Source: a virus. From it: a stretch of DNA of 33,733 nt. The stretch is taken from the IMG/VR virus record IMGVR_UViG_3300028785_000029, positions 1 to 33,733 of that record; one strand, written 5' to 3'. The translations under genes were made by a program, and so were the position numbers. A model generated the notes under the pieces. That model saw only the letters and a program-made list of their open reading frames with translations, had not been told where the DNA came from and did no database searches. Below, one piece after another: positions 1,836 to 26,970 of this stretch. Position 1 is the stretch's first letter. Every line of letters begins with the position of its first letter.

Positions 1836-1848
1836 AGTAAACTCTAAG

Positions 1849-1877
1849 TAGGAGGAAGCAACAATAGCTTCCTCCTA
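1849..1877 (+). terminator. Perfect 11-bp hairpin after the fibre genes
   Basis: TAGGAGGAAGC at 1849-1859 and GCTTCCTCCTA at 1867-1877 are exact inverted repeats with a 7-base loop. The hairpin begins 13 bases after the stop codon of the preceding gene. It lacks a true T run (the sequence continues GTTGTATAT), so it may be a weak terminator, an RNA-processing site, or a stabiliser of the upstream mRNA 3' end. Confidence 0.6.
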
Positions 1878-1883
1878 GTTGTA

Positions 1884-1902
1884 TATAATGTCTATAATAG
1901 AC
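1884..1902 (+). promoter_or_regulatory. Double TATAAT promoter-like site with a palindrome
   Basis: Two exact TATAAT hexamers lie at 1884-1889 and 1893-1898 in a short AT-rich island of an otherwise GC-rich region. The second lies inside the palindrome GTCTATAATAGAC (1890-1902). No good -35 element is visible at 17 bases spacing. N4 late promoters are read by host sigma-70 polymerase with weak -35 boxes and activation by phage SSB, so this could be the late promoter for the gene at 1962 and the lysis and head genes. This is an inference from sequence only. Confidence 0.45.
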
Positions 1903-1961
1903 TACTGCATGTACACTGAGCCAGGTATAAGCCAATTGGCGCTCAGAGAAGGTACTGCACG

Positions 1962-3260: not shown

Positions 3261-3261
3261 A

Positions 3262-4523: not shown

Positions 4524-4840
4524 AGATGGCGGTTGAGGCTGCGGGAGCAGACATCCCCAATTGGATCGTTGCTCTCGGAGTTGGCCTGGGATCAGCGATC
4601 ATCAGTGGCTTCTCAGGCTTCCTTGTTGGCCTCGTCAATCGTGGTCCAGCCATGCAGTTGGCCATCAATGCAGCTTTCGAGCCGCTTCTGGAGGGCTACA
4701 AGGCGAGGGTTTCTGAACTCATCGCCGAGATACACACCCTCCGATATGAGGTGAAAGAGCTCCAAGAGGCGCTGACCACAGCCAAGCAGGAACTCCACCT
4801 GGCTCGAACCAACGATACCCCGACTGGATTCGGCGTCTAA
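4520..4840 (+). CDS. Small membrane/coiled-coil protein of the lysis cassette (spanin-like?)
   Basis: This encodes 106 residues starting at ATG 4520 (ATGA overlap with the holin stop); ATG 4526 is an alternative start. Residues about 15 to 40 are one hydrophobic membrane segment rich in Gly and Ala, followed by a helical coiled-coil region ([19 protein letters not shown]) up to residue about 95. One N-terminal membrane segment plus a coiled coil is the layout of an inner-membrane spanin (Rz) and also of some antiholins. I looked for an embedded lipoprotein (Rz1) reading frame; the overlapping frame at 4533-4754 has no convincing lipobox. So it is third in the lysis block, with an uncertain role. 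Confidence 0.6.
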
Positions 4841-4850
4841 GGGACTCAAA

Positions 4851-7112: not shown

Positions 7113-7120
7113 GTTATGCT

Positions 7121-7175
7121 TTGACTTGGTTCGAAAATGTTTTAACAGTGCCCAAGTCAAGTCGAACTAAGTCAA
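7121..7175 (+). repeat. Inverted and direct repeats of TTGACTT in the portal/head gap
   Basis: TTGACTTGGTTCGA at 7121-7134 pairs with TCGAACTAAGTCAA at 7162-7175 with one G-T mismatch. A further direct copy of AAGTCAA lies at 7154-7160, 15 bases before the one at 7169-7175. So the gap between portal and the next gene holds three copies of a heptamer in two orientations. It could be a binding site for a regulator, a large hairpin, or the -35 part of a promoter (TTGACT at 7121). No clear -10 is seen at the standard distance. Confidence 0.5.
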
Positions 7176-7199
7176 CTTTCCCTCAAGGACCACTCAGAT

Positions 7200-7553
7200 A
7201 TGTCTGAAGTCGCTCAACTCGAGAACCAGCTCGAATTCAACAAGCACTTGCTCGAACAGAAGACCCGTGCGGAGCGTCTTGCTCGCAACATGGACTTCCG
7301 GAAGATCATCCTCGAAGGTTTCTGCCGTGACGATGCTGCTCGTTACGTTCAGGAGAGCGCTGATCCGTCCCTGAGTGCTGAGAATCGTGCCGATGCGCTC
7401 AATATGGCCCAGGCTTCTGGCCATCTGAAGCGCTACCTGAGCTTGCAGATCCAGATGGGCGGCATGGCCGATCGGAATATCGCCGACATCGAAGAGGCTC
7501 TCGTCGAGGCTCGTGCCTCCGAGGTCGAAGGCTCGGAAGGCGTCGAAGTCTGA
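7200..7553 (+). CDS. Small helical head-region protein
   Basis: This encodes 117 residues starting at ATG 7200 with AAGGA 10 bases upstream. The protein is helical and charged, with RAERLARNMDFRKIILEGFC and an N-terminal heptad-like stretch, and an acidic end (EGSEGVEV). A protein of this size with the FRKIILEGF...CRDDAARYV type of sequence is common between portal and scaffold in short-tailed phages, corresponding to the N4 gp58 position. Its function is not known to me; a structural or assembly role is likely. Its stop overlaps the scaffold start as TGATG, so the two are probably translationally coupled. Confidence 0.7.
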   Translation: MSEVAQLENQLEFNKHLLEQKTRAERLARNMDFRKIILEGFCRDDAARYVQESADPSLSAENRADALNMAQASGHLKRYLSLQIQMGGMADRNIADIEEALVEARASEVEGSEGVEV

Positions 7554-8767
7554 TGTCCGCTTCCGACCTTCTCAATATGTCCGATGAGGACTTTCTGAAA
7601 AACCCTCCCAAGTCGGAGGTTGTTGACCCTGTTGAGAAGGTCGATGCCGCAGTGGTTGCGCCACTGACGGAGGCGGCTGAACCGGTTGTCACCACCCAAG
7701 CTGAGCCGGTTCAGCCGCCTAAAGGCAAAGACGACAAGGTCATTGTCCCTCCCGCGAAGGACAAGCCGACCGGGGTCGTCGAACCTGTTTCCGAAACCGT
7801 CGTTGAGACCAAACCCAAGCCGAAAGTCGTCAAGGCGAAGACCGCCGATGACGACGAGTCCGGCGAAGATGGAACCAACGGGGGTGAGGACGAAGGCGAG
7901 ACGGTCGACGGCAAAGAAGAAGCCGCTGGCGGTCCCGACTACGAGGCGCTCTACAAGCAGGTCATGCTGCCTTTCAAGGCGAATGGCCGCACCATCGAGC
8001 TCAAGACGCCGGATGAGGCGATCCAGCTCATGCAGATGGGCGCCAACTACACGAAGAAGATGCAGGAGCTGGTTCCGCACCGCAAAGTGCTGGCCATGCT
8101 CCAGAACAATGGGCTGATGGACGAGGGCAAGCTTACTTATCTGATTGATTTGGATAAGAAAAACCCCGAAGCGATCAAGAAGCTCATCAAGGAAGCCGGC
8201 CTCGACCCCCAGGAGATCGATACCTCCGTCGAGCCGGCCTATCGTGAAGGCAATCACCGAGTCAGTGATGATGAAGTCGCTTTCCACTCGGCTCTGGAGG
8301 ACATGAAGTCCACTCCGGATCGTGTGGGAACTCTCAAGGTCATCAACGATAATTGGGATCAGGCCAGTAAGGACGCTCTCTGGAAGTCGCCCGACATTAT
8401 GTCGATCATCCACGGCCAGCGCGAGACCGGTGTCTACGACCGAATCGCTGCTGAGGTGCATCGTCGCCAGACTCTCGGATCCATTCCGACAAGTGTTCCT
8501 TTTCTCCAAGCCTACAAGGTTGTGGGAGATCAGATGACGGCGGCGGACGCCTTCAAGGATCTGATTTCCAAGCCTGTTCCCCCGGCCAAAACCCCAGTTG
8601 TGGTGGCCACTCGTGTCGCGGCTCCCAAGCCTGCGTTGACGAATGGCGCCCGAGCTGCGGCTGCGTCCACCACCCGACAGGCCCCTGCTGCTTCTGCGAA
8701 GGTCGCCTCGAACCCGCTCGCTATGAGCGACGAGGACTTTCTGAAGCAAATGGCTGGCCGTGTCTGA
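7553..8767 (+). CDS. Capsid scaffold protein with the same motif at both ends
   Basis: This encodes 404 residues. The first 130 residues are disordered, rich in Pro, Val, Lys, Glu and Asp, typical of a scaffold; the central part is helical (residues about 130 to 290), followed by an Ala/Pro/Val-rich region. Position directly before the major capsid gene (N4 gp57 position) supports scaffold. The motif MSDEDFLK occurs at residues 9-16 and again at 391-398, near both ends of the protein. Scaffold proteins bind the inner shell, release and leave the head, so short terminal motifs may be capsid-contact signals. No protease domain is seen. The start codon overlaps the previous stop. Confidence 0.85.
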   Translation: MSASDLLNMSDEDFLKNPPKSEVVDPVEKVDAAVVAPLTEAAEPVVTTQAEPVQPPKGKDDKVIVPPAKDKPTGVVEPVSETVVETKPKPKVVKAKTADDDESGEDGTNGGEDEGETVDGKEEAAGGPDYEALYKQVMLPFKANGRTIELKTPDEAIQLMQMGANYTKKMQELVPHRKVLAMLQNNGLMDEGKLTYLIDLDKKNPEAIKKLIKEAGLDPQEIDTSVEPAYREGNHRVSDDEVAFHSALEDMKSTPDRVGTLKVINDNWDQASKDALWKSPDIMSIIHGQRETGVYDRIAAEVHRRQTLGSIPTSVPFLQAYKVVGDQMTAADAFKDLISKPVPPAKTPVVVATRVAAPKPALTNGARAAAASTTRQAPAASAKVASNPLAMSDEDFLKQMAGRV

Positions 8768-8788
8768 CCTTTGAAAGCGCTCTAAGTC

Positions 8789-9991
8789 ATGTTGAACTAT
8801 ATCCCCAGCCTCGCGGATGGCGGCGTCATCGACTCCGGCAACACGCCCAATCAGTTGCAGCCCTGGTTCTACCTCAAGAAGGCGATCATCACCGCCCGAA
8901 AGGACCAGTATTTCATGCCGTTGGCCAACACGGTCAACATGCCGAAGCACTTCGGCAAGACCATCAAGGTCTACAACTACGTTCCCCTGCTCGACGACCG
9001 CAACGTCAACAACCAGGGCCTCGACGCGAACGGCTCTACCATCGCCAACGGCAATCTCTATGGCTCTTCGCGAGACGTCGGCACGATCAACACGAAGCTC
9101 CCGGCGCTGACCGAAGATGGCGGCCGAGTGAACCGAGTCGGCTTCACCCGTCTGTCGGTCCAGGGCTCCCTGTTCAAGTTCGGTTTCTTCACCGAGTTCA
9201 CCCAGGAATCGCTCGACTTCGACACCGACGAAGAGCTGATGGACCACCTGGCGACCGAACTGATGAACGGCGCCGTCCAGTTGACGGAAGCGGTGCTTCA
9301 GCGTGACTTGCTCGCTTCGGCGGGCGTGATCCTCTTCGCTGGTTCGGCTGTGTCGCAGGCGACGGTTTCGGGCGAAGGCGCTACGCCTTCGATCGTCTCC
9401 TACAAGAACCTGATGCGCCTCGACCTGGTGCTGACGAACAACCGCACTCCGAAGCAGACCACGGTCATCACCGGTTCCCGGATGATCGACACGAAGACGA
9501 TCCCTGCGGCTCGTGTGATGTTCGTCGGCGGCGATGTCGTGCCCCTGCTCAAGGGCATGACGGATCTGTTCGGCAACAGCGCCTTCATCTCGGTCCAGCA
9601 TTACGCTGACGCCGGCACGATCCTGAATGGCGAGATCGGCTCGATCGACAACTTCCGCATCGTGCAGGTGCCGGAAATGCTCCACTACGCCGGCGCCGGC
9701 GCTGCTGTCGGGACGAACCCCGGCTACCAGAGCACCTCGGTGTCGGGCACTTACCACTACGACGTCTTCCCGATGCTCGTGTTGGGCGACGACAGCTGGA
9801 CGACCATCGGTTTCCAGACGGACGGCAAGACGGTGAAGTTCGCCGTTCAGACGAAGATGCCGGGCAGGGACAACCTGACCAAGCTCGATCCCTACGGCGA
9901 GACCGGGTTCAGCTCGATCAAGTGGTACTACGGCATCCTGATCAAGCGGCCCGAGCGCATGGGCATCATCTACACCGTCGCTCCGATCTAA
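8789..9991 (+). CDS. Major capsid protein (N4 gp56 family)
   Basis: This encodes 400 residues starting at ATG 8789. The sequence matches the N4-gp56-type major capsid family in size and pattern: an N-terminal [20 protein letters not shown], then [41 protein letters not shown], and a C-terminal [12 protein letters not shown]. The fold is expected to be HK97-like. The DNA here is the richest in GC and C-ending codons in the window, consistent with strong expression. No good ribosome-binding site is visible before ATG (only GAAAG), which is odd for such an abundant protein. A strong terminator follows at 10010. Confidence 0.95.
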
Positions 9992-10009
9992 TCGACGGCC
10001 ACACAACAG

Positions 10010-10037
10010 AGGGAGAGCTTCGGCTCTCCCTTTCTTT
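10010..10037 (+). terminator. Intrinsic terminator after the major capsid gene
   Basis: AGGGAGAGC (10010-10018) and GCTCTCCCT (10023-10031) form a perfect 9-bp stem closed by a UUCG tetraloop, followed by a T-rich tract (TTCTTT). This is a textbook factor-independent terminator just after the capsid gene. It would allow capsid mRNA to be made in excess of the downstream internal-protein genes. Confidence 0.9.
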
Positions 10038-10054
10038 CCTGAACACAATCCTCA

Positions 10055-10753
10055 GTGAGTACCGAGAATCCCATGAATGACGAGAACCAGGGCAACGATA
10101 CCTCCGGCGAACCGAAGGTGAGCGAGACTCCCGAAGGTATGGGCAGCGATGAGCTGACTGTGCTGAAGCAACGTGCGAAGCTCATGGGGCTGGTTTTCTC
10201 GAACAACATCGGCATTCAGGCGCTTCGCCAGAAGATCGAAGCCAAGATGGCCGGCGAAATTGTGACTGCCGACGCTGAAGCGGACAATGCGCCTGCTCAG
10301 GCGAATCCTCTCACCGGCGAAGATCCGGTCAAGGACGTGAACCCGGTCACCGGCAAGCCGCTGACGACTCGGGAGATCCTCATGCGGGACCAAATGAAGC
10401 TGGTGCGGCTTCGCATCACCAACATGGACCCGAAGAAGAAAGAGCTTCCCGGCGAGATCCTCACGGTCGGTAACGAATTCCTCGGCACGGTCTCGAAGTA
10501 CATTCCCTTCGGCGAAGTGACCGACAACGGCTACCATGTGCCGTTCATCCTCTACACGATGATGAAGGATCGGAAGTTCCTGAACATTCGCACCACGAAG
10601 ACTGCGAACGGTCAGTCGAAGGTCTCCCAAAATTGGGCGAGCGAGTTCGCTCTGGAGATCCTTCCTCCCCTCACGCGGTCCGAACTCGACAAGCTCGCCA
10701 CGGCCCAGGCTGCTGCCGGCGTCTTCGCTGGGGCCAACGAAGAGTCGCTCTGA
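10055..10753 (+). CDS. Virion-region protein with LEM/HeH-like motif
   Basis: This encodes 232 residues from GTG 10055; ATG 10073 in frame is an alternative start of 226 residues. The first 30 residues are acidic and disordered. Residues about 33 to 65 carry LMGLVFSNNIGIQALRQKIE, the pattern of an HeH/LEM-like helix-turn-helix often found in phage virion genes near the capsid. The rest, beginning about residue 105 with LTTREILMRDQMKLVRLRI, is a compact conserved-looking domain. It is in the position of N4 gp55. The function is unknown to me; DNA or protein binding inside the head is plausible. It lies between two strong terminators, so it may form its own transcription unit or be read by leakage. 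Confidence 0.7.
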   Translation: MSTENPMNDENQGNDTSGEPKVSETPEGMGSDELTVLKQRAKLMGLVFSNNIGIQALRQKIEAKMAGEIVTADAEADNAPAQANPLTGEDPVKDVNPVTGKPLTTREILMRDQMKLVRLRITNMDPKKKELPGEILTVGNEFLGTVSKYIPFGEVTDNGYHVPFILYTMMKDRKFLNIRTTKTANGQSKVSQNWASEFALEILPPLTRSELDKLATAQAAAGVFAGANEESL

Positions 10754-10776
10754 CCTTCTGAGTTCGAGTGTTTATT

Positions 10777-10817
10777 GGCCCACTTGGTTCCAAAAAGAGC
10801 CAGTGGGCCTTTCTTTT
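10777..10817 (+). terminator. Intrinsic terminator after the LEM-like gene
   Basis: GGCCCACT(T)GG at 10777-10787 pairs with CC-AGTGGGCC at 10800-10809 (10 bp with one bulged T) across a loop of about 12 bases, followed by TTTCTTTT. It is a strong terminator signature. It lies 23 bases after the upstream stop codon and 15 bases before the next start. Confidence 0.88.
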
Positions 10818-10831
10818 AAGGGCCGCAGCAC

Positions 10832-11542
10832 ATGACGAACACGACCGACACCGTAGACCTCGCCACGATCAATCCGGTCGACATCACGTCTTCGCTTTTC
10901 CAGCTTCCGGAGCTGGGAACGGATACGATGTATGCTGCCGTTCAGCCCATGAACATCTCGCGGGTGACTACGGGTTCCGTGGGCGGAACTGGCGCTTTCG
11001 ACCAGCTGATGGCTGGAATGAAAGCCCAGCTCAAGCACGAGTACGAGAACAACCGGATCACCGGTGCTGAATACACGAAGGCTTTCACGGACCTCACGGC
11101 TGCTGCGATGCAAACCGCGGTGCAGTTCGTGCTTGGCGCTGACGCCAGCTTCTGGAGCTCGCAGACGGCTCAAATCCAGGCGATCACAGGGCGTATCGCC
11201 ATGGAAACTGCTCGCTTTACCTACCAGAACATCTTGCCGGCTCAGTTCGCTCTTGTCGCCGAACAGGGTGATGCGCAACGGGCTCAGACTTCGGACACTC
11301 GCTTGGATGGCGTTCCCATTGCTGGCGTCATGGGCGCTCAGGAAGCTCTCTACAAGCAGCAGATCATCTCCTACCAGCGAGATGCCGAGGTGAAGGCTGC
11401 GAAGATCTTCACGGATGCCTGGATCACCCAGAAAACGATCGATGACGGCCTTCTCCCGCCCAACGGCTTCACGAATGACTCCGTGAACCTGGTGCTCACC
11501 TCGATCATGTCCAACAACGGCTTTGGCGCCCCCGTTGCCTAA
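10832..11542 (+). CDS. Helical virion protein (N4 gp54 position)
   Basis: This encodes 236 residues starting at ATG 10832 with a GGG-containing upstream region. The protein is helical, with GAEYTKAFTDLTAAAMQTAV and the C-terminal block SYQRDAEVKAAKIFTDAWIT followed by IDDGLLPP. The C-terminal pattern (QRDAEVKAAKIF..AWI) is one I have seen in virion proteins of large podovirus-like phages, usually in a neck or internal-protein cluster. The expected role is structural. It directly precedes the large ejected-protein genes and is separated from the next start by 14 bases. Confidence 0.6.
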   Translation: MTNTTDTVDLATINPVDITSSLFQLPELGTDTMYAAVQPMNISRVTTGSVGGTGAFDQLMAGMKAQLKHEYENNRITGAEYTKAFTDLTAAAMQTAVQFVLGADASFWSSQTAQIQAITGRIAMETARFTYQNILPAQFALVAEQGDAQRAQTSDTRLDGVPIAGVMGAQEALYKQQIISYQRDAEVKAAKIFTDAWITQKTIDDGLLPPNGFTNDSVNLVLTSIMSNNGFGAPVA

Positions 11543-14427: not shown

Positions 14428-16248
14428 ATGCCCACCCTGACCTGGCGTGATGTCGCCGCACCGGATTTCAACACTTCTCTCGGGGCTACGGCTCTTGCTG
14501 GGAGGTCGCTAAACAATGCTTTTGGCGGTCTGAGCGACAGTCTGGGCAAGTTCCACGACTGGCAACAGCAGCAAGCTGCGAGCGCTCTCGCCAACAACGA
14601 AGTTCAGTACCCGGATGCTCAGTCTCAGGCTGCTGCTGCTGCCGGTGGAGCTTTGTTCAATGGCGTCGACCGGTCCAATCTGACTCCCGATGCGCTCAAA
14701 GGCGTCGACAGTCGGGCTACGACGCTCCTCAACAATGCCATGACGCAGGCTCAGTTGCCCTATGCCGGGGATCTAGCCAAGGCGAACGTGAACTCGATCA
14801 ATGCTGGCACCGGTCAGACGAACCTGAACACCAAGATTACGGGCAACAACTACGACGATCTGAACTCGGCTGCGAAAGTTACGGCCCAGATCACGCCCCA
14901 AGCGACGAACTTCGACGAAGCCAGCGCTCTCTTGGAAGCCCAGCGAGGTTCGCTCACCCCTGGAGCCTATTCCCGAGCCATGGAGGCTCTTCAGTCGAAG
15001 TATGCTCCGGGTGCGGCTGGTAATCCCAATGGAGCAGCTGGTGCGATTGCAGGCGCTGCCGGTGGCACCTCTGGTTCAGGAAACCTGATCTCCGACAATG
15101 CAGGCTTCATTGCGTCTATTCCGCCTGGGCCTTACGACCAGACTCGCAACTATGTGAACAAAATCGTCCCGAATCTTCCCGATCTGTCCGGCATGGACAA
15201 TGACGCGAAGGCTGCGGCGATCATGAGCGCTTTGAAGAACCAGGAGTCCTCTGGGCAGCAAATCGATCCGAAGACTGGTCAGACGATCACCTCGTCGAAG
15301 GGGGCAAAAGGTATCGCCCAGGTGATGCCTGCGACGTTTGCAGAGTTGAAGGCTGCCCATCCTGACATCAAGGGGGACATCAACGACCAAGCGTCAAATG
15401 AGCTTGCAGGTCAGTATTACCTCAAAGACCAGCTGGATCACTACAACGGCAACGTCCCCCAGGCGCTTGCTGCCTACAATGCTGGCCCTCATGCCGTTGA
15501 TAAGTGGTTGGCGAACTCCCCCAATGCGATGCTCGAAGCCGAGCGTAATGCACAGATGCAAGCGACGGCTCTCACCAGCAAAGCAGGCCAGTTCGTCGGG
15601 CAGAATACGGCTCCAGGCATTGCCGGCCAGTACACTGAGCTCCAAAAAGACAATACGCCGATGGCGGATGTCGTGGCAGGCCTTAAGGGTCAGAAAGACG
15701 GGCAGTTTTCGACCATCGATCCGGATTTGATCCGGAATCCTCTGAACAAGATCTTGGACTACGCCGCCCAAGCCAAAGTACCCATGAACCCTGCGACTGC
15801 GGCGGCGCTACTCAACCGCTATGGAAGCTATGCCGAAGGCGGTTGGCTCCATGGAAACCCCGGCCGAAACAGCATCAACCTGAACGATGCCGGTGTGAAA
15901 GCCGAGATCGCCAATATGGCTGATCCGGATGGCTTGGCCACGAAGTCTGTCCAGAACAACGCTGCAACGGCGCTCTCTCAGAGTGTTCAGGCTGCACAGG
16001 CCCAACAGCAAGCTGCTTTTGCGGCGGTGCAACAGGGTCAGCAGCGAGCGGCTCTTCATCCGGACTATGCGGGGCTCCCGGCTCTCCAGACGAAGTACAA
16101 CCGTGCAAAAGAGCTGCTCTCTATAGCTGTAGGCAACCTCCAGAAGCAGAAATTGGTGCCGACCTATCCTGGTCGTCCTGGTTCGAGCAACGCTGCCTCG
16201 GCGATCTCTGGAGCGGTGGCTCCCGCTTCGAACGGCTTCAACAACTAA
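14428..16248 (+). CDS. Internal virion protein with lytic transglycosylase domain
   Basis: This encodes 606 residues starting at ATG 14428, with AGAGGA 8 bases upstream. Residues about 262 to 360 form a soluble lytic transglycosylase (SLT) domain: the ALKNQESSG region with catalytic Glu273, then KGIAQVMPATF, then ALAAYNAGP. This enzyme cleaves peptidoglycan without water, producing an anhydro sugar. The flanks are Ala/Gln/Asn-rich helical regions. As in T7 gp16, where an ejected protein carries an SLT domain, it likely opens a small hole in the cell wall for DNA and polymerase entry. It sits in the N4 gp51 position just before the virion polymerase. So this phage has two wall hydrolases: this one for entry and the GH108 muramidase for exit. 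Confidence 0.85.
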   Translation: MPTLTWRDVAAPDFNTSLGATALAGRSLNNAFGGLSDSLGKFHDWQQQQAASALANNEVQYPDAQSQAAAAAGGALFNGVDRSNLTPDALKGVDSRATTLLNNAMTQAQLPYAGDLAKANVNSINAGTGQTNLNTKITGNNYDDLNSAAKVTAQITPQATNFDEASALLEAQRGSLTPGAYSRAMEALQSKYAPGAAGNPNGAAGAIAGAAGGTSGSGNLISDNAGFIASIPPGPYDQTRNYVNKIVPNLPDLSGMDNDAKAAAIMSALKNQESSGQQIDPKTGQTITSSKGAKGIAQVMPATFAELKAAHPDIKGDINDQASNELAGQYYLKDQLDHYNGNVPQALAAYNAGPHAVDKWLANSPNAMLEAERNAQMQATALTSKAGQFVGQNTAPGIAGQYTELQKDNTPMADVVAGLKGQKDGQFSTIDPDLIRNPLNKILDYAAQAKVPMNPATAAALLNRYGSYAEGGWLHGNPGRNSINLNDAGVKAEIANMADPDGLATKSVQNNAATALSQSVQAAQAQQQAAFAAVQQGQQRAALHPDYAGLPALQTKYNRAKELLSIAVGNLQKQKLVPTYPGRPGSSNAASAISGAVAPASNGFNN

Positions 16249-16365: not shown

Positions 16366-19300
16366 ATGGCGAACGTGTCGGATCTGCTCAGCTCTGCACT
16401 CGGGACGAATCCGTCCCCGGTGCCGGCTTTCTCAGGGTCCGCTCCTGCACCTGTCCCGACACCCGTTCCCACTCCTCTGGTGAAGCAGGCGGCTGTCGCT
16501 CAGGCTGCTCCTGAGAAGCAAGCCGAGGTTGCTGCGGCTTCTGACTCCAAGAAAGTCGATATGGGGGGTCTGCCGGATAAGCAGACGTTCCTGAATGCAG
16601 CGATTGCTCGCCGCACGGGATCGGGACTCAGTTCTGCGAACCCGGTCGAGAAGGATCTTGCGACCCTCGGACCCGACCAGATCATCCAGAAATATGGCCC
16701 TGAAGTCGGTCAGGGAATGCTCATTGGCTTGAACCAAGCAGGTGATGCTTACGATGGTCGAGCGACCAGCACTCCCGGTTCAATGCTCAAGGATGCTGCT
16801 CTCGGTCTCGGTCAGGGCGCTATCGCCATCGGTGGCTTGGCCACTGTGCCCCTTGCAGCAGCGGATCTCGGCTTCAATGCGGCTGGTGTGAACACTCACA
16901 TGGGCGTCTCCACCGCTCAGATGCTGAAGAATGCCAGCGATTATGTGGGTGGGTTCAAGTCGATCGGGCTTCAGAACCAGACGAGTGCGAATGAAGATCG
17001 CACAGCTCTCGATATGCGAGATAATGCTGCGGCTCAGGACACCCAGGACCAGGGTATCGCCCAGCAATACGTCGCTGACAAAGCCAATGGCGACAGTGAC
17101 TTCGTTGCAGGGGCGAAGATCCGGGCTCGAACCCTCGCTGGGATGGCTGAGAACTTCGGATCTGACGCCTACGATGCCGTGAAGAACACGGTCCAGAACC
17201 CTGCCCTCTTGGCGGACAACACCGCTCAGTTCGTTGGTTCGCTCATTGGGGCTGGCCCTACGGGCAAGACTTTCGGGGCTTTGAGCAAAGCAATCGTTCC
17301 CGAAGCGACTCGGCTCTCGATCGGTTCAGAGGCTGCGATTGCTCGTGAATTGGGTTTGCCTTCGGTTTCTCGAGCCGCTGACGCTATCGGCAAAGCTCTT
17401 CCCAACGAGATGCTCACCAGCATGGGCGCCGTGGAAGGCTCCAGCACCTATCAGAACACCTCGACCGACATCGCGAATACGGATCCCGCCGAGTTGGCGA
17501 AGACTTCGCCCATGTTCCGTGAGCTCGTTGCCGGTGGCATGAGTCCCGAAGATGCTCGCTACCAGGTGGCGAACAGGGCTGGTCTTCTTGCAGCGGCTGT
17601 GGCTGCCCCTCTTTCGATGGGTGTAGCCAAGGCCACCTCGATTGCTGACTTCGAGAAGCATCCTTTCTCGCTCAAGAGCTTTGCTCACGCTGGAGCCGAT
17701 CTCCTCAAAGAAACCGTGCATGAAGGTGGTCTCGGAGCGACGGACACGCTCTCGGAGAACATCGGCAAGCAACAGACAGCGAACCCCAACCAGGATCTCG
17801 GTGAGGGTGTTGCCCAGCAGACGGGTCTTGCGGCCTTGGGTGGCTTCGGTTCTGCGGCGATCACTCAGGCTCCTTCGCTCACTGGCACGCCTCTCAAGAT
17901 GGCCGGCAAAGCTGCCCTTTCCGGAGCTGGCACAGTAGGGAACGCTGCTCTTGGCCTCGTTGGTTCAGCGGCAGCGAAAGCTGCTGCGCCCGTCAAGGCT
18001 GCGACTGAGGCGGCTTCGCCTGTCTCGGATGCCCAAGTGGCTCACCAAGGGGCTGCCGTCCAAGCGACGATGAGCGATCCTATGGCAGCCGTGGCTTTGC
18101 ATGACGCAGTGCAGAAAAGCCCCGACTTCGCCCCTATTGCCGACAAGATCACCCAGTTGGGTCAGTTCGATCCCGAAGAGATCGCGAATTCGACCCTCCC
18201 TGAACCAGTGAAGAAGCAGCTGGCGGGTTCGGCCAATCGAGTCGACATGCTCCAGAAGCTTGCGAACATCGTCAACGACAAGGGTGTCACCACCCAAGAG
18301 GGGCTTTCGGCTGCTTCGTACCTCCATGATCAGATCGGGAAGTACCAAGCCCTCACCGAGAGCGATCCGGCAGGGTTCGAGGCTCTCCCGGATGACCACG
18401 TAGCGGGTCAGATCAACGAGCAATTCAATCAGCTGGCCGACAACATCCGGAGCAATCCGACTGTCTCCAAGGCGCTGACGCAAGTGTCTCAGCTCACCCA
18501 GGACCAAGTCGAGAAGCTCATCCAGCCGGTGACCCAAGAGAGCCTTCACACTCCTGAAGGCCAACAGAACATCGCCAATGCTGCGACGATCGCTTCTGAG
18601 GCCCCGGACAAGGGGAACCTTGAAGCGAACAAAGCGATCTTGGCGCATGTCGAGAACGGCGAAGTCAAACTGGAGCCGGATCAGCTCAAGGCTCTCCAGA
18701 GCTCTGTGGCGATCATGCAGGCTTCCCGAGAGGGAACTCTCGCCCAGCAGGCTGCCGGGCATGAGAGCCCCATGGGTTCCGTGACCCAAGACATTCTCAC
18801 CCGGTCTGGAGCCAAGGCAAACCAGGCTCGGTCTGCCACGTCTTATGCGCTGCGCATTTTCCAGTCGGTTCGATCGGGAGACATCGAGACTGCGAAGGCG
18901 CACCTCGCTGATTTCGGCGACTTCGTGCAGCACATGCAGAACAAAGCAGCGGCTTTGAACCAGCACTACGAGAACGGCGGCGGCGCCAAAGTCTCGAACC
19001 TCGCCATCAATCCGGAGTCTCGGGCCTGGTATCAGACCAAGGGCAACTTCGCCCAGAGCGTCAATCCCACCAATGCCAAGAGCGTCGAATACGCTCAACG
19101 GGTTTCGCTCGAAGCCAAGCAGGTTTCGGACATCTACAACGGTCTCTCGAAGGCTTTCCCCGAACTCGAAGGCGGCCAGAGCCAGAGCACCCCCTTGACC
19201 AAGAACCTTCAAGGGAAGGTCCAAGACGTGCTTGCTGAGCACAAAGCTGGCACCCGTGTTCAGCCTTCCCTGGTTCCAAACGCAGATCGTGCTCCCAAGC

Positions 19301-22300
19301 CCGTTCCGGCGATCACCAGGAACGAAAAGAGTGTGTCCAAAACCGAAGCGACACCGGTTTTGCTCCCCGAGCAAAACCAGGGAGCGGAGGAGGAGAAAAC
19401 CAAGCCCCAATCCGAAGCCGACGCGACACCCGCGAAGACTTCACAGACTGAGAAATCGACGGAGGCGCAGCCGGAGGAGCTTTCGAAGGATGTGAAGACA
19501 AGCGAGGGAGCGGAGGAAGCTCCTAAGACGATCCAGGAAGCCTACCCCAACTTGCACCAAGCAGGGGATGGGCCGGTCAAGAACTGGTTTGAGCACGCCT
19601 ATAAAGCCACCAAGGAGATCTCCAGCAGGATCTTCGGGGATCACTCGCCTGTCGAGACCGTCAAGAATGCTCTTCGATCCAATGACGCTCGTGTGGCGTT
19701 TGTGGGTGAGGACAAAATTCGGGGCACGCTCACCAAGCCCATGATCCGGACAGTCCAAGCCTATCTGGATTTTGCACCTCAGCTGATCGACACGCTGAAC
19801 GAGCGTTTCAACGCAAAGCTGGGCGAAAAGGGTCTCGCTGAGCGTCTGGTGAAGGGGGAACCCCTTAATCGCTGGACCGAGCTCAAGGCTTCGAACTTGG
19901 TCGAGCAGCAGGAAGATGGCTCATTCAAGTACAATCCGGCGATCGCCGGCCAGGCTGTCTTGGCAGGCCTCCAGTGGCTGCTGGTGTCGAACAATTATCG
20001 ATCCGACATGGATGCAGACCTGGTGAGTGCGCTCACTGGGATCCCCAGTGATCAGGCCGAGCGCCATGTAGGAATGCTCGATGTCGGGCTCTCGCCGGTG
20101 GAAGCCGTGCGTTCGCTCGCCAGCAAGATCGTAGATTTCTGGGGGGTCCAGAAAAACCCCAACGTCGACAAGGCCTACACTGACGGTATCGCTCAAGCGA
20201 TGGCAACTGAGGTGCTCAGGGCTCTCGAAGAGACTGTGATCGACAAGTCCCAGCCCAAGGGCGAGCAGGGGCTTCTTCAGCGGCTGCGTTTCGTGATCGA
20301 TGGGGATAGCGTCTCTCCCTTGGCCTATGGCGAAGAGACCAAGAAGCGCACTCTCCAGAGGCTCGTTTCGAACCTGGATCGAGGCAACGCCTCGAAAGAT
20401 ACCCAAGATCCGCTCTTTCAGAACCCGAATTTGATCGAACAGACTGTGCTCACCGAGCCCAAAGAGCGGGACTATTACGCCGACGACAAGATCCCGGTGG
20501 CAAAGACCCAGATGCGAAATCTTGTGGTGCCTCTGACAAGCACCCAGCGTTCCATGATCAAGGTCGCTCAGGGGGTCGAGCACTTCCTGAACATGGAACT
20601 GTTCCAGCTTTACAATGCGCTAGGGGAGAAGGGGCTTCTATCGCTCTTCGGGGCTGGCGACACTGATCGGCCTCTGAATACTCAGCACAAGCTCACTCTT
20701 GAGGGTCAGAACCAGACGATACGCTCGGCTTGGCGCACTCTTTCGGGACGTGTGGCTGACATGAACACGTTTGGTCAGGAGCTGGGGAAGATCCCCATGC
20801 GTTATGCCTTCAACGTGTCGAGTGTGGGACGTCTTCAGATGCTGGGGGCTGATAATCCCCAGGCTTCGAAGCTGGTCCGAGAGATCGTGCTTCCGACTTG
20901 GAGCACGCTCGATCTGACTGATCCCGACCAGGAGACGCTATTCAAGACCGCCATCGCCCAGGCTCTTGGGGTCAAGATCCACGCTAACAGCACGGAAACG
21001 AACCTCGCCAAGGTCGAAGCTCAACTGAACGGCGCATTTGCCGGTACGTTGCAGCTGCTTACTGAGCATCTCAACGATGAACGGCTCCCTGACGGCGCTA
21101 TAGAGCGCATCCAGAGCGAGTTCCAGGCTGCGGGGGAGGACCTTACCCCTAACGCTCTTCATGCTCTTCAGGAATGGGCTCGATCCCAGACTGTGGGCGA
21201 CAAGGGTCGCACTGCGTTTCGTACCGGGATTTATCTCGAGGCTGACGGAGTGACGAACGGGATCGTCAACGCTATCCATATGCTCACCACCACAGGTTTC
21301 ACGGGAGACCAGATCGGAAATCTGGCCAAAGGGGGAATGTTCTTCAACGGTCCCACCACGATGAACGAGCATCGGGCGGGGGACAGCGTAGATCTCTATT
21401 CGGTGGCTGCGAACAAGCTCCAGAGCAGTGCAAACTCGCTTTACAGGAATGCCCCTGAAGCCGTCAAAACTCAGGCCGATCACCTCTACAAGCTGATGAA
21501 CCTGCTCTTGCCGAAGGTCGACTTCGACCTTAGCACAGGCACGCTCTCTGTGGATCGTGGCGTCACCAAGAACCCGATGACGATCACCGTCTATGGGTCT
21601 GGAGCCAATGGCATCGCTGCAAAGATCACGGACATGCTCGCTGAACAGGTCTACGAGCGTCTCTCTCGTGTGGCTGGAGCGGACAAAGAAGTCTCTTTTG
21701 CTGAGGCAATGTTTGGAGACTCCACCGGTGAAGGCCATGATGACCGGCTCGATGCCTTTGACAAGGCCCTCAACGGAATTCTGACCACCAAAGTGGGAGG
21801 AGATCCTTCCGGAGGCAAAGCTCTCTCAGAGATCAACCCCGAGAAGTTCGTCTTTGACAAGAAGCAGATGGCTTCGATCCAAGAGCATGTGCTCAGTCTC
21901 TTCGTCGATCCGATGCGAGATGGGATCACCGAGACTCTAGGCCAGTCCTTCATGGACTCGACCAAGCTTGTGCAACGGTCCACGCAGGCTCAGTCGATCG
22001 TGCTTGAGCATCTGTTCACCCAGAAGGTGAAAGAGGCTGTCGCTCAGCGGGCTGAGAATGACCCGACCTGGCGTAAGGGAGACTTTCTGTCGGAGAATGC
22101 CCTCAAAGGCATTTTGCAAGACCTGCTCAAGACCATGCCCCTGATCGACACAGGAGAGCAGCGCTTCTTCCCGGTCAAGAACAACACGAGTGAGTTCGAC
22201 CAGATCCTCGCCAAGAGCCTTGATGGCAAGCTGGGCACTCCGGCTGAAGTGAATGGCCCTTCGGACTCGGGAGTGAAGGGCGGAGCCATGCTTAATATCG

Positions 22301-25300
22301 GCATGGGTGACGGAGCCATGATCCAGCACATGCTGAACAATGGCGCTCGTGGTCTCCCTGTGTTCGACGGCTTCAATTTCGCTCTCGATCATGTCCTCGA
22401 AGGGAGCCAGAAAGCGAACGAGGCTGCTTCTGAGTCCTGGAAGGGGAACCCTCTCCGGGCTGTGCTGGAGAGCTTCGAGCCCTTCTTGAAGTCGATCAGT
22501 TCAGAGATGCTCGACAAAAACGAAAAGATGAAAGACGCCCTCATCAAAGCGCTCTTTCCCCAGGCCGAGCGCAAAAATGCGACTTCCACTGGTGTGATCG
22601 CTATTCTGGAGGGTTTCCGAGATGAACTCTCGGATGGCGCCAACGTCGTGGACGCCCGACACCAGGTGCTCGGCGAGCACCAGTTCTACGTTGACCAGAT
22701 GGCCGGGGCTCAGAGTCCCTACCTGAACAAGGGTATTCCCCTTTCTGGTTCGCCTGAAGAGATCGCCAGCAAACTCAACAATCGGCTGGCTGAAGTCCTC
22801 AAAGCCAAAAGCGATAAACCGGCCCTCGTGGTAATGACGCCGACCGATCTTGACTTGGGCATTGCCCAGTCGGAGCTGTCCGCGGATCAACAGGACGTCT
22901 GGCAGCATATCAAGGCTGCTGGGGGACTGGATGGTTATCGGATTTTGTCTGGCACTCGCGCCCAGATCGACGAATATCGAGCCAACAATAACCTGCCGGC
23001 CATTGAACAGACTTCTCTCAAGTCTGCCAAGGGCTTGATCGATCCAGGCAGCAAGATGATCTACCTCGTCGGATCGAGCGCTGAGACGATGCTGCATGAG
23101 GCTGTCCACGCTGCTACTTTCAATACGATCCTGACCCACTACGAAGGGGGCGATCTAGGGAAACGAGCCAGTGAGATCACTGGTTCTGTGAACCGGCTCG
23201 AAGCCCTCATGAGGCAGTTTCTGAGCCCGGAATTCTCAGAAATTGGCGTAAAAGCTGGAGATAGTTTCTTCAACGCTTCGAAGGCTGTCCGAGACGCTCT
23301 GGCCCAGAAGACTCCTCTGGGGAAAGCCACGGCCCTGAATGAGTTCATGGCGTGGACGCTGGCCAACAAAGAACTCACGGGAGCCCTCAAAAACACCCAA
23401 GCCACCGGCTTGGCCAAGATCGCTTCGGACGTCTGGCAGGCGATCAAGACCCTCGTGTTCGGCAAGAACCAGGCTCTCCATGTCGGGGACGATATGTTCT
23501 CGAATCTGCTCTTCAATTCGGCTGTGGTCATGCAGGCTCAGCCCACGATCGCCGACCTCAATAGGTCTGTGACGCTCTTCCAGAACCCGTCTTACGGCAC
23601 GGACGATCGCCTTAGTGCGCTCAATGTGCAATTCGACAAGATCTTCGGCCGCTTCATGAATGTGAGCGACCCGGTGCAGGCCACGAACCGATCGATTGCC
23701 GTCCAGCAAGCGTCGGTCTCGTCGTTCAAACTGGCGAATCTCGCAGAACTGAGCGGCTTCAACGGGATGTCGCTTCAGGCTCACAAAGCGTTCCATGCGA
23801 TTGTGCAGGCGCTCTCCCTGGAGATGAGCCTCTCGCCCACTTCGATGGCTATCGCTGAGGGGCTCTTCCGGCACGCCATGAAGCAGCTCACCCCCGATAT
23901 GCTCATCGACCAAAGCGATCCCGACAGGGTTCGGGCCGAGAGCATGGCCAACTCGAAGTTCAATTTCCTGCTGGGCAATCTGGGCACCGAAACTGATAAA
24001 TCGGGACGCTCTTCGCTGTTGCCCGTCTTCATGGCTCTGGCCACGGTCGATGACGACTTCAGGGATGCTCTGAGCTTTCTAGATCTGCCTAAGTCCGAAA
24101 AGAGCCATGAGAAAGGCTCTCTCTCTGAGCGTTTCGAGGCTCGCCTTTCGAACCTGGCCCAGCAGGGCCTGGACTCGCTCTCGGATCGCATGGGCGGAGT
24201 GGGCAACTCCAAGAACGTCCAGCAAGCGATCGACGCTCTCACCCAGCATGTAGCGAGGGAGGCGTCAGACACTGCGTCTTTGATGAGTCAAATCAATCAG
24301 ATCGCTTCTGCCCCGAACAAGGGGATCAACATCTTGAACGACGGGGTTGTGAACCTCCTCGACAGGGCGAGCGATGTGCTCCTCCAGGGCGCTGACAAAG
24401 TCAAAGCGAGCACGAGCAATTCGCTCGTCCAAAAGGGCGCCGAGGCTGTGAAGCTCTTTGCCAATATGGCGACAGCCGAGAAAGCCCGAGGGCTCCAGGA
24501 ATGGGCCAGCGGAATCAATAACAATGTCAAGGGCTGGAAGCCCCTGACAGAAGCTGTGGGCGAAATCATTGGCCGTTCGGCGAGCAATGCCAGCGTCTAC
24601 GACATGATCAAGACTGTCCGGGCGATCATCCAAAATGCTCGCCAGCAGTTCGTGGATCACGTCCCGCAGATGTTCGAGAAGCAGTTTACCCAGAGGATGA
24701 CCAAAACCGAGTGGAGCGCCCTGCATATGGGCGTCGCCAAGACGGATCTCTCGGCCCTGACGGAAGCGCATTCGCACGAAGACGTGCTCAAAATGCTGAG
24801 CAATCCCAAGGCTCGAAGTTCTGTGATCCAGGGTCTGGAGACCCAGCTCGAAAAGGAAGATCCCCGCTACTGGGCGCTCGTCAAAGCCAAAGCCGAGCAG
24901 CTCGCCACCCACATGACGTCGGGGGCCATTGGCAGGAACCTCTTGCGCAATGCCGATGCGATTGCTCGTCTCCTGGGCGAGAACCACTCCATGAGCCGAC
25001 CTGCGCCCACGGAAGCCTATGTGAAAGCGCTCGACCAGCTGATCTCGCTCTATGCCCTGAACAAGCTCGCTCCCGAGACGCAGGCGCATCTCTCTTCCTT
25101 GGTTCAAAGCGAAGCCGAGGGCATGAAGTTCGTGCTTGCCTATGTGAACAACCTTCGTCTGGAGGAGAAAGCCAAGTCCCTGGGCATGGCCAAGTTCAAT
25201 AGTTACAAGGGCTTCGTGCCTATGAACCAGAAAGCCGGGATGAGCATTGTCGTCGCCAAAGACAGCGATTCGCCGGCTCTTCTCGCCAAGAGCATGATCC

Positions 25301-26970
25301 GGATTGCCGACTACAAAGGCTCGAAAGCCGAGGGGAACCACGAGAGCAAGGGCTACTACTACCAGCCGGCAGCAGGCCGGGCTGCGTTCACCCAGGGCAC
25401 GCTGCAATCCATTCACCACACGGCCGGAGGCGTGGATCTTCAGACCGGGCAAACCACAGGTGTGACGGCAGGGCTCATTACGAACCCGGTCACCGTCGAC
25501 AAGATTGCTCGGCAGCTTTCGAGGGAGGGTAAAGCCACTTCCGAGAACCTCGTGCCGTTGTACAACGACTCCGGGAAGGTGGTCGCCTTCGAGCGGAGCG
25601 TCGATCCCAGCCAGCTTGCGCGTCTCGGGCTAGATGACAACCTTGCCAGGATGGCGGGCGTCTGGCGGGGTCGCCAGGTCGAAGAAGCGGTGGCTCACAA
25701 GTTCAACACCGAGCTGATCGACAAGATGCACGAGATGTACAAGAGCGACATCCAGAAGAGCGCTGCGAACAAGTCGCAATATGTGAACCTGTTCGATCCG
25801 AAGTCCTACGACAACGATGCGCCTACGAGGCAGGCTGTCTCGCTCATGTCGCCGCAGACGAAGGCCTACATCAAGAGCGTTTTCGGCAACAAGTTCATGG
25901 TGCGCCGGGACATGATCAATGACTCGATCGGCTACCACAAGGCGAGCATTGGTGACGCTTGGACCGGGAATTCCCGATGGTCTCCCGAGACACTCGATGT
26001 TGTAAAGAACATCTCGATGGCGATCTGGGGCAACAAAGCCTACGCGAACCTCGTGAATTCCGAAGGTGTGTGGAAAGAAGCCGTCAAAGAGGTCAAGTCG
26101 ATCATTATGATCAAGAGCTTGCTCATGCCGGCAGTGAACCTTGCGGCTGATACTTTTCAGCTCATGGGTCGTGGAGTGCCACTGGCGACGATTGCCAAGA
26201 GCACTCCCCAGAAACTCTCCGAGATCAACGCCCATGTGAAGGGCAAGCTTCGCAAAATGGATGCCGAGGGTGAGCTCTTCGCTGCTCAGGGAGCCAAGAA
26301 CTACAACAAAGTCCAGAAGCTCAAGGCTGAGATCCAGTCGATCAACGACAGTGATCGTCGTCTGTCGATCTGGCCCCTCATCAAGGCTGGTGAGTTCGGA
26401 ATGGTCGCCGACGTAGGCAACTCAAGAGGTGACCTGGCCCTCACAGGAGGCAGGTTGCAGGAGTTCATGGAGGGTTTGACGAGCAAACTCCCCGAGGCAG
26501 TGCGAACTGCCGGCAACTATGCCCTCATCGGGGAAGACACGCCCCTTTATCAGGGCATCCAGAAGTCGATGGAGTACGGCGATTTCATCATGAAAGCGCT
26601 CTACTACGACCACTTGATGAAGAAGCCGGGCATGACGAGCCAGAAAGCGCTAGGCGAGGTCAGCGAAGAGTTCGTGAACTTCGATCGGTCTCAGGGACGT
26701 TTCCGCGGTTCTCTGGAAGAGCTGGGGCTTGCATGGTTCTACAACTATAAGCTGCGAAGCGCGAAGATCGCTCTGTCGGTGGTTCGGGATAATCCCGTCC
26801 ACACACTGCTGGGATCTCTTGGACCCTTCTCAAGCACCGTGGGCGTCGAGAACTTCCTCGGCGACAACGTGTTCGGCAAGGCGTTGGAGGGTAACCTCCT
26901 GCACTCGATCGGCCCAGGCATGATGCTCAGGGCTCCGATGATGCACCCTCTGGCTCAGCTGCTGCATTGA
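16366..26970 (+). CDS. Giant virion-encapsidated RNA polymerase (N4 gp50 type)
   Basis: This encodes 3,534 residues from ATG 16366. An upstream in-frame TTG (16312) is less likely, as the extra 18 residues overlap the leader. N4 vRNAP is about 3,500 residues. Single-subunit polymerase motifs are visible: SSVGR at 1485-1489 (T/DxxGR motif), EADGVTNG with catalytic Asp1627 (motif A), RGVTKNP...VYG with Arg1731, Lys1735 and Tyr1743 (motif B, with T7-like spacing), and VFDGF with Asp2001 (motif C). A charged low-complexity linker (about 975 to 1060) separates the N-terminal domain from the core. C-terminal to the core lies an HEAVH motif at 2244-2248. The polymerase is packed in the head, ejected with DNA and transcribes early genes. 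A terminator follows the stop. No strong ribosome-binding site is seen. Confidence 0.95.
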   Translation: MANVSDLLSSALGTNPSPVPAFSGSAPAPVPTPVPTPLVKQAAVAQAAPEKQAEVAAASDSKKVDMGGLPDKQTFLNAAIARRTGSGLSSANPVEKDLATLGPDQIIQKYGPEVGQGMLIGLNQAGDAYDGRATSTPGSMLKDAALGLGQGAIAIGGLATVPLAAADLGFNAAGVNTHMGVSTAQMLKNASDYVGGFKSIGLQNQTSANEDRTALDMRDNAAAQDTQDQGIAQQYVADKANGDSDFVAGAKIRARTLAGMAENFGSDAYDAVKNTVQNPALLADNTAQFVGSLIGAGPTGKTFGALSKAIVPEATRLSIGSEAAIARELGLPSVSRAADAIGKALPNEMLTSMGAVEGSSTYQNTSTDIANTDPAELAKTSPMFRELVAGGMSPEDARYQVANRAGLLAAAVAAPLSMGVAKATSIADFEKHPFSLKSFAHAGADLLKETVHEGGLGATDTLSENIGKQQTANPNQDLGEGVAQQTGLAALGGFGSAAITQAPSLTGTPLKMAGKAALSGAGTVGNAALGLVGSAAAKAAAPVKAATEAASPVSDAQVAHQGAAVQATMSDPMAAVALHDAVQKSPDFAPIADKITQLGQFDPEEIANSTLPEPVKKQLAGSANRVDMLQKLANIVNDKGVTTQEGLSAASYLHDQIGKYQALTESDPAGFEALPDDHVAGQINEQFNQLADNIRSNPTVSKALTQVSQLTQDQVEKLIQPVTQESLHTPEGQQNIANAATIASEAPDKGNLEANKAILAHVENGEVKLEPDQLKALQSSVAIMQASREGTLAQQAAGHESPMGSVTQDILTRSGAKANQARSATSYALRIFQSVRSGDIETAKAHLADFGDFVQHMQNKAAALNQHYENGGGAKVSNLAINPESRAWYQTKGNFAQSVNPTNAKSVEYAQRVSLEAKQVSDIYNGLSKAFPELEGGQSQSTPLTKNLQGKVQDVLAEHKAGTRVQPSLVPNADRAPKPVPAITRNEKSVSKTEATPVLLPEQNQGAEEEKTKPQSEADATPAKTSQTEKSTEAQPEELSKDVKTSEGAEEAPKTIQEAYPNLHQAGDGPVKNWFEHAYKATKEISSRIFGDHSPVETVKNALRSNDARVAFVGEDKIRGTLTKPMIRTVQAYLDFAPQLIDTLNERFNAKLGEKGLAERLVKGEPLNRWTELKASNLVEQQEDGSFKYNPAIAGQAVLAGLQWLLVSNNYRSDMDADLVSALTGIPSDQAERHVGMLDVGLSPVEAVRSLASKIVDFWGVQKNPNVDKAYTDGIAQAMATEVLRALEETVIDKSQPKGEQGLLQRLRFVIDGDSVSPLAYGEETKKRTLQRLVSNLDRGNASKDTQDPLFQNPNLIEQTVLTEPKERDYYADDKIPVAKTQMRNLVVPLTSTQRSMIKVAQGVEHFLNMELFQLYNALGEKGLLSLFGAGDTDRPLNTQHKLTLEGQNQTIRSAWRTLSGRVADMNTFGQELGKIPMRYAFNVSSVGRLQMLGADNPQASKLVREIVLPTWSTLDLTDPDQETLFKTAIAQALGVKIHANSTETNLAKVEAQLNGAFAGTLQLLTEHLNDERLPDGAIERIQSEFQAAGEDLTPNALHALQEWARSQTVGDKGRTAFRTGIYLEADGVTNGIVNAIHMLTTTGFTGDQIGNLAKGGMFFNGPTTMNEHRAGDSVDLYSVAANKLQSSANSLYRNAPEAVKTQADHLYKLMNLLLPKVDFDLSTGTLSVDRGVTKNPMTITVYGSGANGIAAKITDMLAEQVYERLSRVAGADKEVSFAEAMFGDSTGEGHDDRLDAFDKALNGILTTKVGGDPSGGKALSEINPEKFVFDKKQMASIQEHVLSLFVDPMRDGITETLGQSFMDSTKLVQRSTQAQSIVLEHLFTQKVKEAVAQRAENDPTWRKGDFLSENALKGILQDLLKTMPLIDTGEQRFFPVKNNTSEFDQILAKSLDGKLGTPAEVNGPSDSGVKGGAMLNIGMGDGAMIQHMLNNGARGLPVFDGFNFALDHVLEGSQKANEAASESWKGNPLRAVLESFEPFLKSISSEMLDKNEKMKDALIKALFPQAERKNATSTGVIAILEGFRDELSDGANVVDARHQVLGEHQFYVDQMAGAQSPYLNKGIPLSGSPEEIASKLNNRLAEVLKAKSDKPALVVMTPTDLDLGIAQSELSADQQDVWQHIKAAGGLDGYRILSGTRAQIDEYRANNNLPAIEQTSLKSAKGLIDPGSKMIYLVGSSAETMLHEAVHAATFNTILTHYEGGDLGKRASEITGSVNRLEALMRQFLSPEFSEIGVKAGDSFFNASKAVRDALAQKTPLGKATALNEFMAWTLANKELTGALKNTQATGLAKIASDVWQAIKTLVFGKNQALHVGDDMFSNLLFNSAVVMQAQPTIADLNRSVTLFQNPSYGTDDRLSALNVQFDKIFGRFMNVSDPVQATNRSIAVQQASVSSFKLANLAELSGFNGMSLQAHKAFHAIVQALSLEMSLSPTSMAIAEGLFRHAMKQLTPDMLIDQSDPDRVRAESMANSKFNFLLGNLGTETDKSGRSSLLPVFMALATVDDDFRDALSFLDLPKSEKSHEKGSLSERFEARLSNLAQQGLDSLSDRMGGVGNSKNVQQAIDALTQHVAREASDTASLMSQINQIASAPNKGINILNDGVVNLLDRASDVLLQGADKVKASTSNSLVQKGAEAVKLFANMATAEKARGLQEWASGINNNVKGWKPLTEAVGEIIGRSASNASVYDMIKTVRAIIQNARQQFVDHVPQMFEKQFTQRMTKTEWSALHMGVAKTDLSALTEAHSHEDVLKMLSNPKARSSVIQGLETQLEKEDPRYWALVKAKAEQLATHMTSGAIGRNLLRNADAIARLLGENHSMSRPAPTEAYVKALDQLISLYALNKLAPETQAHLSSLVQSEAEGMKFVLAYVNNLRLEEKAKSLGMAKFNSYKGFVPMNQKAGMSIVVAKDSDSPALLAKSMIRIADYKGSKAEGNHESKGYYYQPAAGRAAFTQGTLQSIHHTAGGVDLQTGQTTGVTAGLITNPVTVDKIARQLSREGKATSENLVPLYNDSGKVVAFERSVDPSQLARLGLDDNLARMAGVWRGRQVEEAVAHKFNTELIDKMHEMYKSDIQKSAANKSQYVNLFDPKSYDNDAPTRQAVSLMSPQTKAYIKSVFGNKFMVRRDMINDSIGYHKASIGDAWTGNSRWSPETLDVVKNISMAIWGNKAYANLVNSEGVWKEAVKEVKSIIMIKSLLMPAVNLAADTFQLMGRGVPLATIAKSTPQKLSEINAHVKGKLRKMDAEGELFAAQGAKNYNKVQKLKAEIQSINDSDRRLSIWPLIKAGEFGMVADVGNSRGDLALTGGRLQEFMEGLTSKLPEAVRTAGNYALIGEDTPLYQGIQKSMEYGDFIMKALYYDHLMKKPGMTSQKALGEVSEEFVNFDRSQGRFRGSLEELGLAWFYNYKLRSAKIALSVVRDNPVHTLLGSLGPFSSTVGVENFLGDNVFGKALEGNLLHSIGPGMMLRAPMMHPLAQLLH

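Follow-up and report, generated by a model that had tools for sequence, protein, structure and literature searches.

Does the virion RNA polymerase (vRNAP) that an N4-like phage carries into its host bring a peptidase with it? The question is raised by a single HExxH motif in the vRNAP gene of IMG/VR virus record IMGVR_UViG_3300028785_000029, a 33,733-base stretch of N4-like (Schitoviridae) phage DNA that we analysed over its whole length (the window). A first-pass annotation had placed this motif (HEAVH) at residues 2244-2248, C-terminal to the polymerase core, preceded by a hydrophobic strand (KMIYLVGSS) and followed about 80 residues later by NEFMAW with Glu2326 as a candidate third metal ligand. 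We found that His2244, Glu2245, His2248 and Glu2326 correspond to the only invariant columns of the surrounding domain, called C1 in phage N4. Judged by its conservation and predicted fold, C1 is probably a zincin-type metallopeptidase that would be silent in the virion and would perform limited proteolysis after ejection.

The presence of a metallopeptidase domain in vRNAPs is already known and was published in 2017. Iyer, Burroughs, Anand, de Souza and Aravind (2017; PMC5512222) described such a domain in N4 gp50 (aa 2130-2448), used profile searches to place it among the zincins (match to lethal factor, 4dv8), noted that a later helix bears the Glu ligand, and proposed three possible roles, namely processing inside the phage head, processing once the protein has been injected, and action on host targets. 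Since the domain and the same roles are described there, the proposal of the first-pass annotation was already in print, and the zincin/lethal factor assignment had been reached independently of our analysis. The window protein is a further member of that family, with the domain in the same place after the polymerase and with the same HExxH and later-helix Glu. The assignment was subsequently repeated for N4 and extended to Pectobacterium (Cbunavirus) phages (PMC8472413). In a cryo-electron microscopy preprint (Bellis et al., 2025; PMC12633501), the C-terminal region of N4 vRNAP was solved, C1 was named and its conserved HExxH was noted; in the available text of this preprint the motif is given one sentence with no enzymatic role offered, and a zinc-word occurs once, as 'zincin'. 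What we add is the invariance of four columns, which extends to vRNAPs out of reach of the C1 profile, a vRNAP without C1, the modular occurrence of the domain, and the observation that the published full-length gp50 was made in ethylenediaminetetraacetic acid (EDTA) without added zinc, which bears on the intactness and autoinhibition data.

The HExxH site and its conservation

The plus-strand open reading frame (ORF) in question runs from TTG 16312 to a stop ending at 26970 (3552 aa), and the in-frame ATG 16366 was taken as residue 1. It matched PF21894 (E = 6.5e-53), PF21769 (2.5e-30), PF21867 (2.3e-27) and PF21624 (6.4e-08), and its match to phrog_2206 covers ORF residues 67-3551. With both the N4 vRNAP polymerase domains and a full-length family match present, the gene encodes a Schitoviridae vRNAP. 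The positions given by the first-pass annotation held: HEAVH occupies residues 2244-2248 and is C-terminal to the polymerase core, as the Pfam vRNAP domains end at ORF residue 2131, KMIYLVGSS begins at nucleotide 23053, and Glu2326 in NEFMAW lies 82 residues after His2244. Three minus-strand ORFs overlapping the HExxH stretch had no PHROG matches at E up to 0.01. A stretch of 361 aa around HEAVH was 100% identical in a longer contig, IMGVR_UViG_3300028873_000026.

To avoid selection by the HExxH motif itself, vRNAP relatives were fetched by alignments of the polymerase core alone. A search with a single core sequence yielded just two contigs, each 100% identical to it in the matching region, and alignment queries were therefore used, from which we took the best 80 of 188 and the best 80 of 153 relatives, two overlapping sets. 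The first relatives (74 loci), fetched by patterns including the motif, were left out of the conservation counts, as were seven genome loci fetched by motif-bearing patterns, all of them motif-carrying vRNAPs. The core-selected sets comprised 97 ORFs with distinct downstream sequence, 92 of which extend at least 350 aa beyond the core. HExxH was present in 91 of these 92, the exception being contig L231, described below. Four of the five shorter ORFs stop at once after the core, and the fifth (L093) has HELVH right before a frame break.

The C1 alignment consisted of 93 rows, that is, 92 loci and the N4 GenBank record, which duplicates one of them (L086). Invariance was counted in 91 rows (90 loci and the N4 duplicate), omitting L231, which has no domain, and L179, in which an insertion misaligns the third Glu. 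Only four of the 252 columns of the domain were invariant, namely N4 His2228, Glu2229, His2232 and Glu2310, which correspond to window His2244, Glu2245, His2248 and Glu2326; the same four columns were invariant when the L179 row was included. Pairwise identity within the domain had a median of 31% and a minimum of 15%. Two further columns varied little: N4 Glu2224 (window Glu2240) was Glu in 91 of the 92 rows with the domain, and N4 Trp2314 (window Trp2330) was Trp in 87 and Tyr in five, counting L179. An earlier set of 72 distinct sequences showed the same four residues as invariant over the modelled region, together with Gly2223, Glu2240, Trp2330 and one Phe. Since some rows are near kin of one another, the counts do not represent 90 independent tests. 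Nevertheless, the conservation that the first-pass annotation had proposed to check was found for all four residues in the 90 core-selected loci with the domain, and no examined relative having the domain had lost its His or Glu ligands.

These data also settle whether the motif could have arisen by chance in a non-enzymatic helical region. In line with that explanation, the window domain had no Pfam match at E up to 1 and hence no named peptidase family by profile. However, 0.063 HExxH motifs are expected in the window vRNAP from its protein composition, against the one observed, and 91 of 92 relatives have the motif at the same position. This, together with the invariance, led us to reject the explanation. 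Furthermore, as only the H, E, H and E are invariant, an incidental role of the site is unlikely.

The site was also found in distant named phages. Ten records besides N4 and pSb-1 were taken from the low ends of two lists of relatives (215 and 234 records). In G19, TR2, S5, KpCHEMY26 and Pollock, HELVH or HELIH is followed 72-79 residues downstream by KEFVAW or AEFIAW. The vRNAPs of ZC03, phi50-12, phCDa, VBP47 and EcP1 have exactly one HExxH apiece, 231-321 residues past the core match, with a Glu 58-81 residues after it whose E[FLM]xA context was chosen by eye. In phi50-12, phCDa and VBP47, no C1 profile match was detected at E up to 10. In these sequences, the predicted active site outlasts the recognisable similarity of the C1 domain surrounding it.

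Predicted fold and structural neighbours

The AlphaFold2 model of the window C1 (285 aa, 72 sequences) had a predicted local distance difference test (pLDDT) score of 87.1 and a predicted template modelling (pTM) score of 0.83. Strands were predicted at model residues 70-74, 101-104 and 109-113, the HExxH helix at 117-137 and the Glu2326 helix at 195-211. KMIYLVGSS corresponds to strand 109-113, and HExxH is thus predicted to lie in a helix after a beta strand, as the first-pass annotation had supposed. A second model, built from 21 sequences for the C1 domain of locus L228 (19% identity to the window domain), had a pLDDT of 87.6 and the same order of elements, with strands predicted at 64-67, 92-95 and 101-104; the two models are partly dependent, since six of the 21 rows (L115, L123, L124, L142, L147 and L152) were common to both alignments. 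The predicted fold has the features of zincins, and of gluzincins in particular: HExxH in a helix, at least three strands ahead of it, and the third Glu on a later helix. It resembles a zincin, in which the ligands would come together, and it agrees with the solved homologue from N4 (9PNR/9PNT, HELVH), to which the window model aligned with Z 10.8-10.9 over 202-204 residues (rmsd, root mean square deviation, 5.1-5.2) at 26% identity over the aligned residues.

In VIA-align searches with both models, N4 9pnt/9pnr came top (Z 10.8-11.8). Lethal factor chains followed, with Z up to 7.6 for the window model and 7.7 for the L228 model, and beyond the anthrax-toxin group (lethal factor, edema factor and Certhrax) the next row had Z 4.0 and 4.9, respectively. 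The catalytic domain of anthrax lethal factor (peptidase family M34) was the best solved fold outside vRNAPs for both models. Some of the lethal factor rows match its N-terminal domain, a non-catalytic relative of the catalytic one. Lethal factor and vRNAP C1 shared 6-14% identity in the aligned rows, and no shared sequence profile was found; in lethal factor, the spacing from HExxH to the third Glu is shorter than the 82 residues of the window. A capsid chain of the jumbo phage PhiKZ (8y6v_D) gave a weak match to the L228 model, just under the anthrax-toxin rows (Z 4.9).

Among predicted viral proteins, the fold search with the window model returned vRNAPs; weaker matches were to polyvalent phage proteins and to an RNA polymerase-associated zincin of crAss-like phages. 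The latter, annotated as a fusion, was a weak match of one BFVD entry (rank 18, E = 0.065), and the polymerase of crAss-like phages is of a different type from vRNAP. On the basis of the predicted fold, the window vRNAP is of the polyvalent-protein metallopeptidase type, that is, a zincin within a giant multidomain phage protein. A Pfam scan of 72 C1 members gave weak matches, most commonly to SprT-like (24 of 72, best E 0.034); Tox-MPTase4 and Peptidase_M91 were each matched by three of the 72, with best E values of 0.0094 and 0.035, respectively. No lethal factor family profile was present among the 25 entries listed out of 96.

HExxH also occurs in enzymes with other chemistry, for example alpha-ketoglutarate-dependent HExxH enzymes, a paper on which is cited beside the zincins in PMC12633501. 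Such chemistry is highly improbable for C1: the solved folds nearest to the models outside vRNAPs are lethal factor chains, and the conserved Glu that forms the third residue lies on a later helix, which is the arrangement of gluzincins.

Loss, duplication and nesting of C1, and its gene context

The only core-selected vRNAP without the motif is that of L231 (IMGVR_UViG_3300049933_000037). At about nucleotides 3100-3330 of this record, a short linker stands in place of the whole C1, with polymerase core and C2 kept, and no C1 match was detected elsewhere in the 39 kb record. L231 is a single metagenomic contig, and an assembly error is possible. The upstream part had 35-38% identity to its best relatives and the downstream part 45-48%, with no close relative found in this chimera check, and we found no second contig or phage with a deletion of this type.

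Other contigs have more than one such domain. In L074 (IMGVR_UViG_3300002029_000014), two C1-type zincin domains are present, one before and one after the polymerase, the N-terminal one with HEMLH and NEFMAY. In L179 (IMGVR_UViG_3300050196_000085), a second HExxH (HETIH) is inserted in C1, after the HExxH helix and before the Glu helix, and the NEFMAW belonging to C1 itself is present 335 residues after HESIH; this is apparently a zincin-like domain nested within a zincin. As judged from L074 and L179, C1 is a modular domain. One additional HExxH was found elsewhere in each of L171, L178, L200, L229 and L232, with no C1 profile match there, and may in some of them be due to chance. In Shigella phage pSb-1 (L254, NC_023589.1), the annotation divides the vRNAP (597-11385) among three successive genes, gp103, gp102 and gp101; the second gene break lies inside C1 and is either a sequencing error or a real split.

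The gene order in the window is portal, major head protein, virion proteins and vRNAP, followed by single-stranded DNA-binding protein, primase and exonuclease on the minus strand (Table 1). Directly upstream of the vRNAP, in the place of N4 gp51, a virion protein (14428-16248, plus strand) has a transglycosylase SLT domain (PF01464, E = 7.7e-15), and an endolysin-like gene (3262-3963, plus strand) has a glycosyl hydrolase 108 domain (PF05838, E = 7.8e-20).

Table 1 Positions in the window of the vRNAP gene, its C1 domain with the predicted active-site elements, and two structural genes
Feature	Position	Strand	Remark
Portal	4851-7112		
Major head protein	8789-9991		
Virion RNA polymerase (N4 gp50-like)	16366-26970	+	3534 aa counted from ATG 16366, putative start; Pfam and PHROG matches
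Pfam vRNAP domain matches, span	20545-22704	+	ORF residues 1412-2131
C1 as modelled, zincin-like metallopeptidase domain (predicted)	22732-23586	+	ORF residues 2141-2425; counterpart of N4 C1 (residues 2124-2375, 9PNR/9PNT)
KMIYLVGSS, beta strand ahead of active helix	23053-23079	+	model strand 109-113
Glu2240 codon	23083-23085	+	four residues ahead of HExxH (N4 Glu2224)
HEAVH, His2244-Glu2245-xx-His2248	23095-23109	+	two predicted metal ligands and predicted general base
Glu2326 codon	23341-23343	+	predicted third metal ligand, in NEFMAW (23338-23355); conserved column; model helix 195-211
C2 region of vRNAP	23587-26967	+	mostly helical C-terminal part in N4, according to PMC12633501

Possible functions of C1

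In the reading that we favour, Zn2+ would be coordinated by His2244, His2248 and Glu2326, with Glu2245 as the general base. We infer zinc binding and catalysis from the invariance of all four residues, including a Glu that is needed only for catalysis. The peptidase would be carried silent in the virion, would refold in the host after ejection and would then perform limited proteolysis. Its target would be either a protein of the host or one co-ejected with vRNAP, close to the ejection complex, or else its own chain, cut at a regulated moment. Action is placed after entry because N4 vRNAP is packaged full length (PMC5512222) and ejected into the host (PMC12633501). Limited proteolysis after ejection is the mode of action that we consider most likely, and as its target we rank a host or co-ejected protein somewhat above vRNAP itself. 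Of the earlier proposal that the polymerase entering the host carries its own protease, one part stands, as there is a zincin-type domain with a gluzincin-like third Glu and the N4 homologue is ejected, while self-processing before injection is disfavoured.

Alternatively, C1 could cut its own chain, before packaging or after ejection, and thereby free the polymerase from the inhibitory C-terminal or the membrane-bound N-terminal part. C1 directly follows the polymerase and a linker, the C-terminal domain of N4 vRNAP inhibits transcription (PMC12633501), and polyvalent proteins have been proposed to undergo processing, as P1 DdrB does (PMC5512222). We nevertheless consider autoprocessing rather unlikely. 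The unprocessed state of packaged N4 vRNAP disfavours constitutive self-cleavage, recombinant full-length N4 vRNAP was obtained from E. coli with no evidence of degradation, and the switching is explained in the available text of PMC12633501 by domain rearrangement with no cleavage. The recombinant protein is, however, a weak test, because lysis and purification of full-length gp50 were done with 0.5-1 mM EDTA and no added zinc; the components listed for the transcription assay include Mg, but zinc and EDTA are both missing (PMC12633501). Both the intactness and the autoinhibition were thus seen without supplied zinc, and activity could have been missed in this preparation. Still, EDTA came in only at lysis, and the protein had stayed whole during the preceding expression in E. 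coli, which disfavours fast constitutive self-cleavage.

Another explanation is that C1 binds metal without being proteolytic, and that selection keeps the site because it stabilises the fold, assists refolding once the protein has been ejected, serves packaging or holds the polymerase in its inhibited state. Indeed, the C-terminal region is reported to be required for encapsidation (PMC5512222, citing others; a 2015 review cites unpublished data), and in N4 it contacts the polymerase (PMC12633501). Yet a structural metal site does not need the Glu of HExxH, whereas Glu2245 is invariant, so that catalysis is favoured over a purely structural metal. The clasp residues of N4 are not conserved either, Asp2012 being Asp in 13 of 93 rows and Arg2279 being Arg in 19 of 93, in a part of the alignment that is poor, and we rejected the clasp to the polymerase as the reason for the conservation. 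L231, in addition, keeps polymerase and C2 without C1. We regard a non-proteolytic role as distinctly unlikely.

Several observations weigh against limited proteolysis after ejection as well. The packaging of N4 vRNAP in unprocessed form (PMC5512222) and the lack of degradation of the recombinant protein (PMC12633501) are two of them, and the L231 vRNAP suggests that C1 may be dispensable. The Z scores of lethal factor are below 8, a range in which, as the tool warns, a match can reflect a common arrangement. With Foldseek alone against the PDB, only N4 was found at E < 0.001, and no other zincin was recognised by title among the 50 rows listed. Finally, our literature search, which covered open-licence papers, found no reports of C1 activity, zinc content or substrate.

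If C1 is an active protease, the entry of N4 vRNAP, a long-studied early infection event, includes an enzyme with no known substrate, and the search for that substrate would be a well-defined problem in a model phage and its laboratory host. We tentatively suggest, as a possibility that we hold with some doubt, that the vRNAPs of Schitoviridae are also injected proteases, in which a lethal factor-like peptidase, under constraint of the kind seen at enzyme active sites, would cut a host protein at the start of infection. Some lineages would then have a second zincin-like domain (L074 and L179), and one (L231) would apparently have lost the domain. If vRNAPs are indeed injected proteases, transcription takeover and host proteolysis would be combined on one chain.
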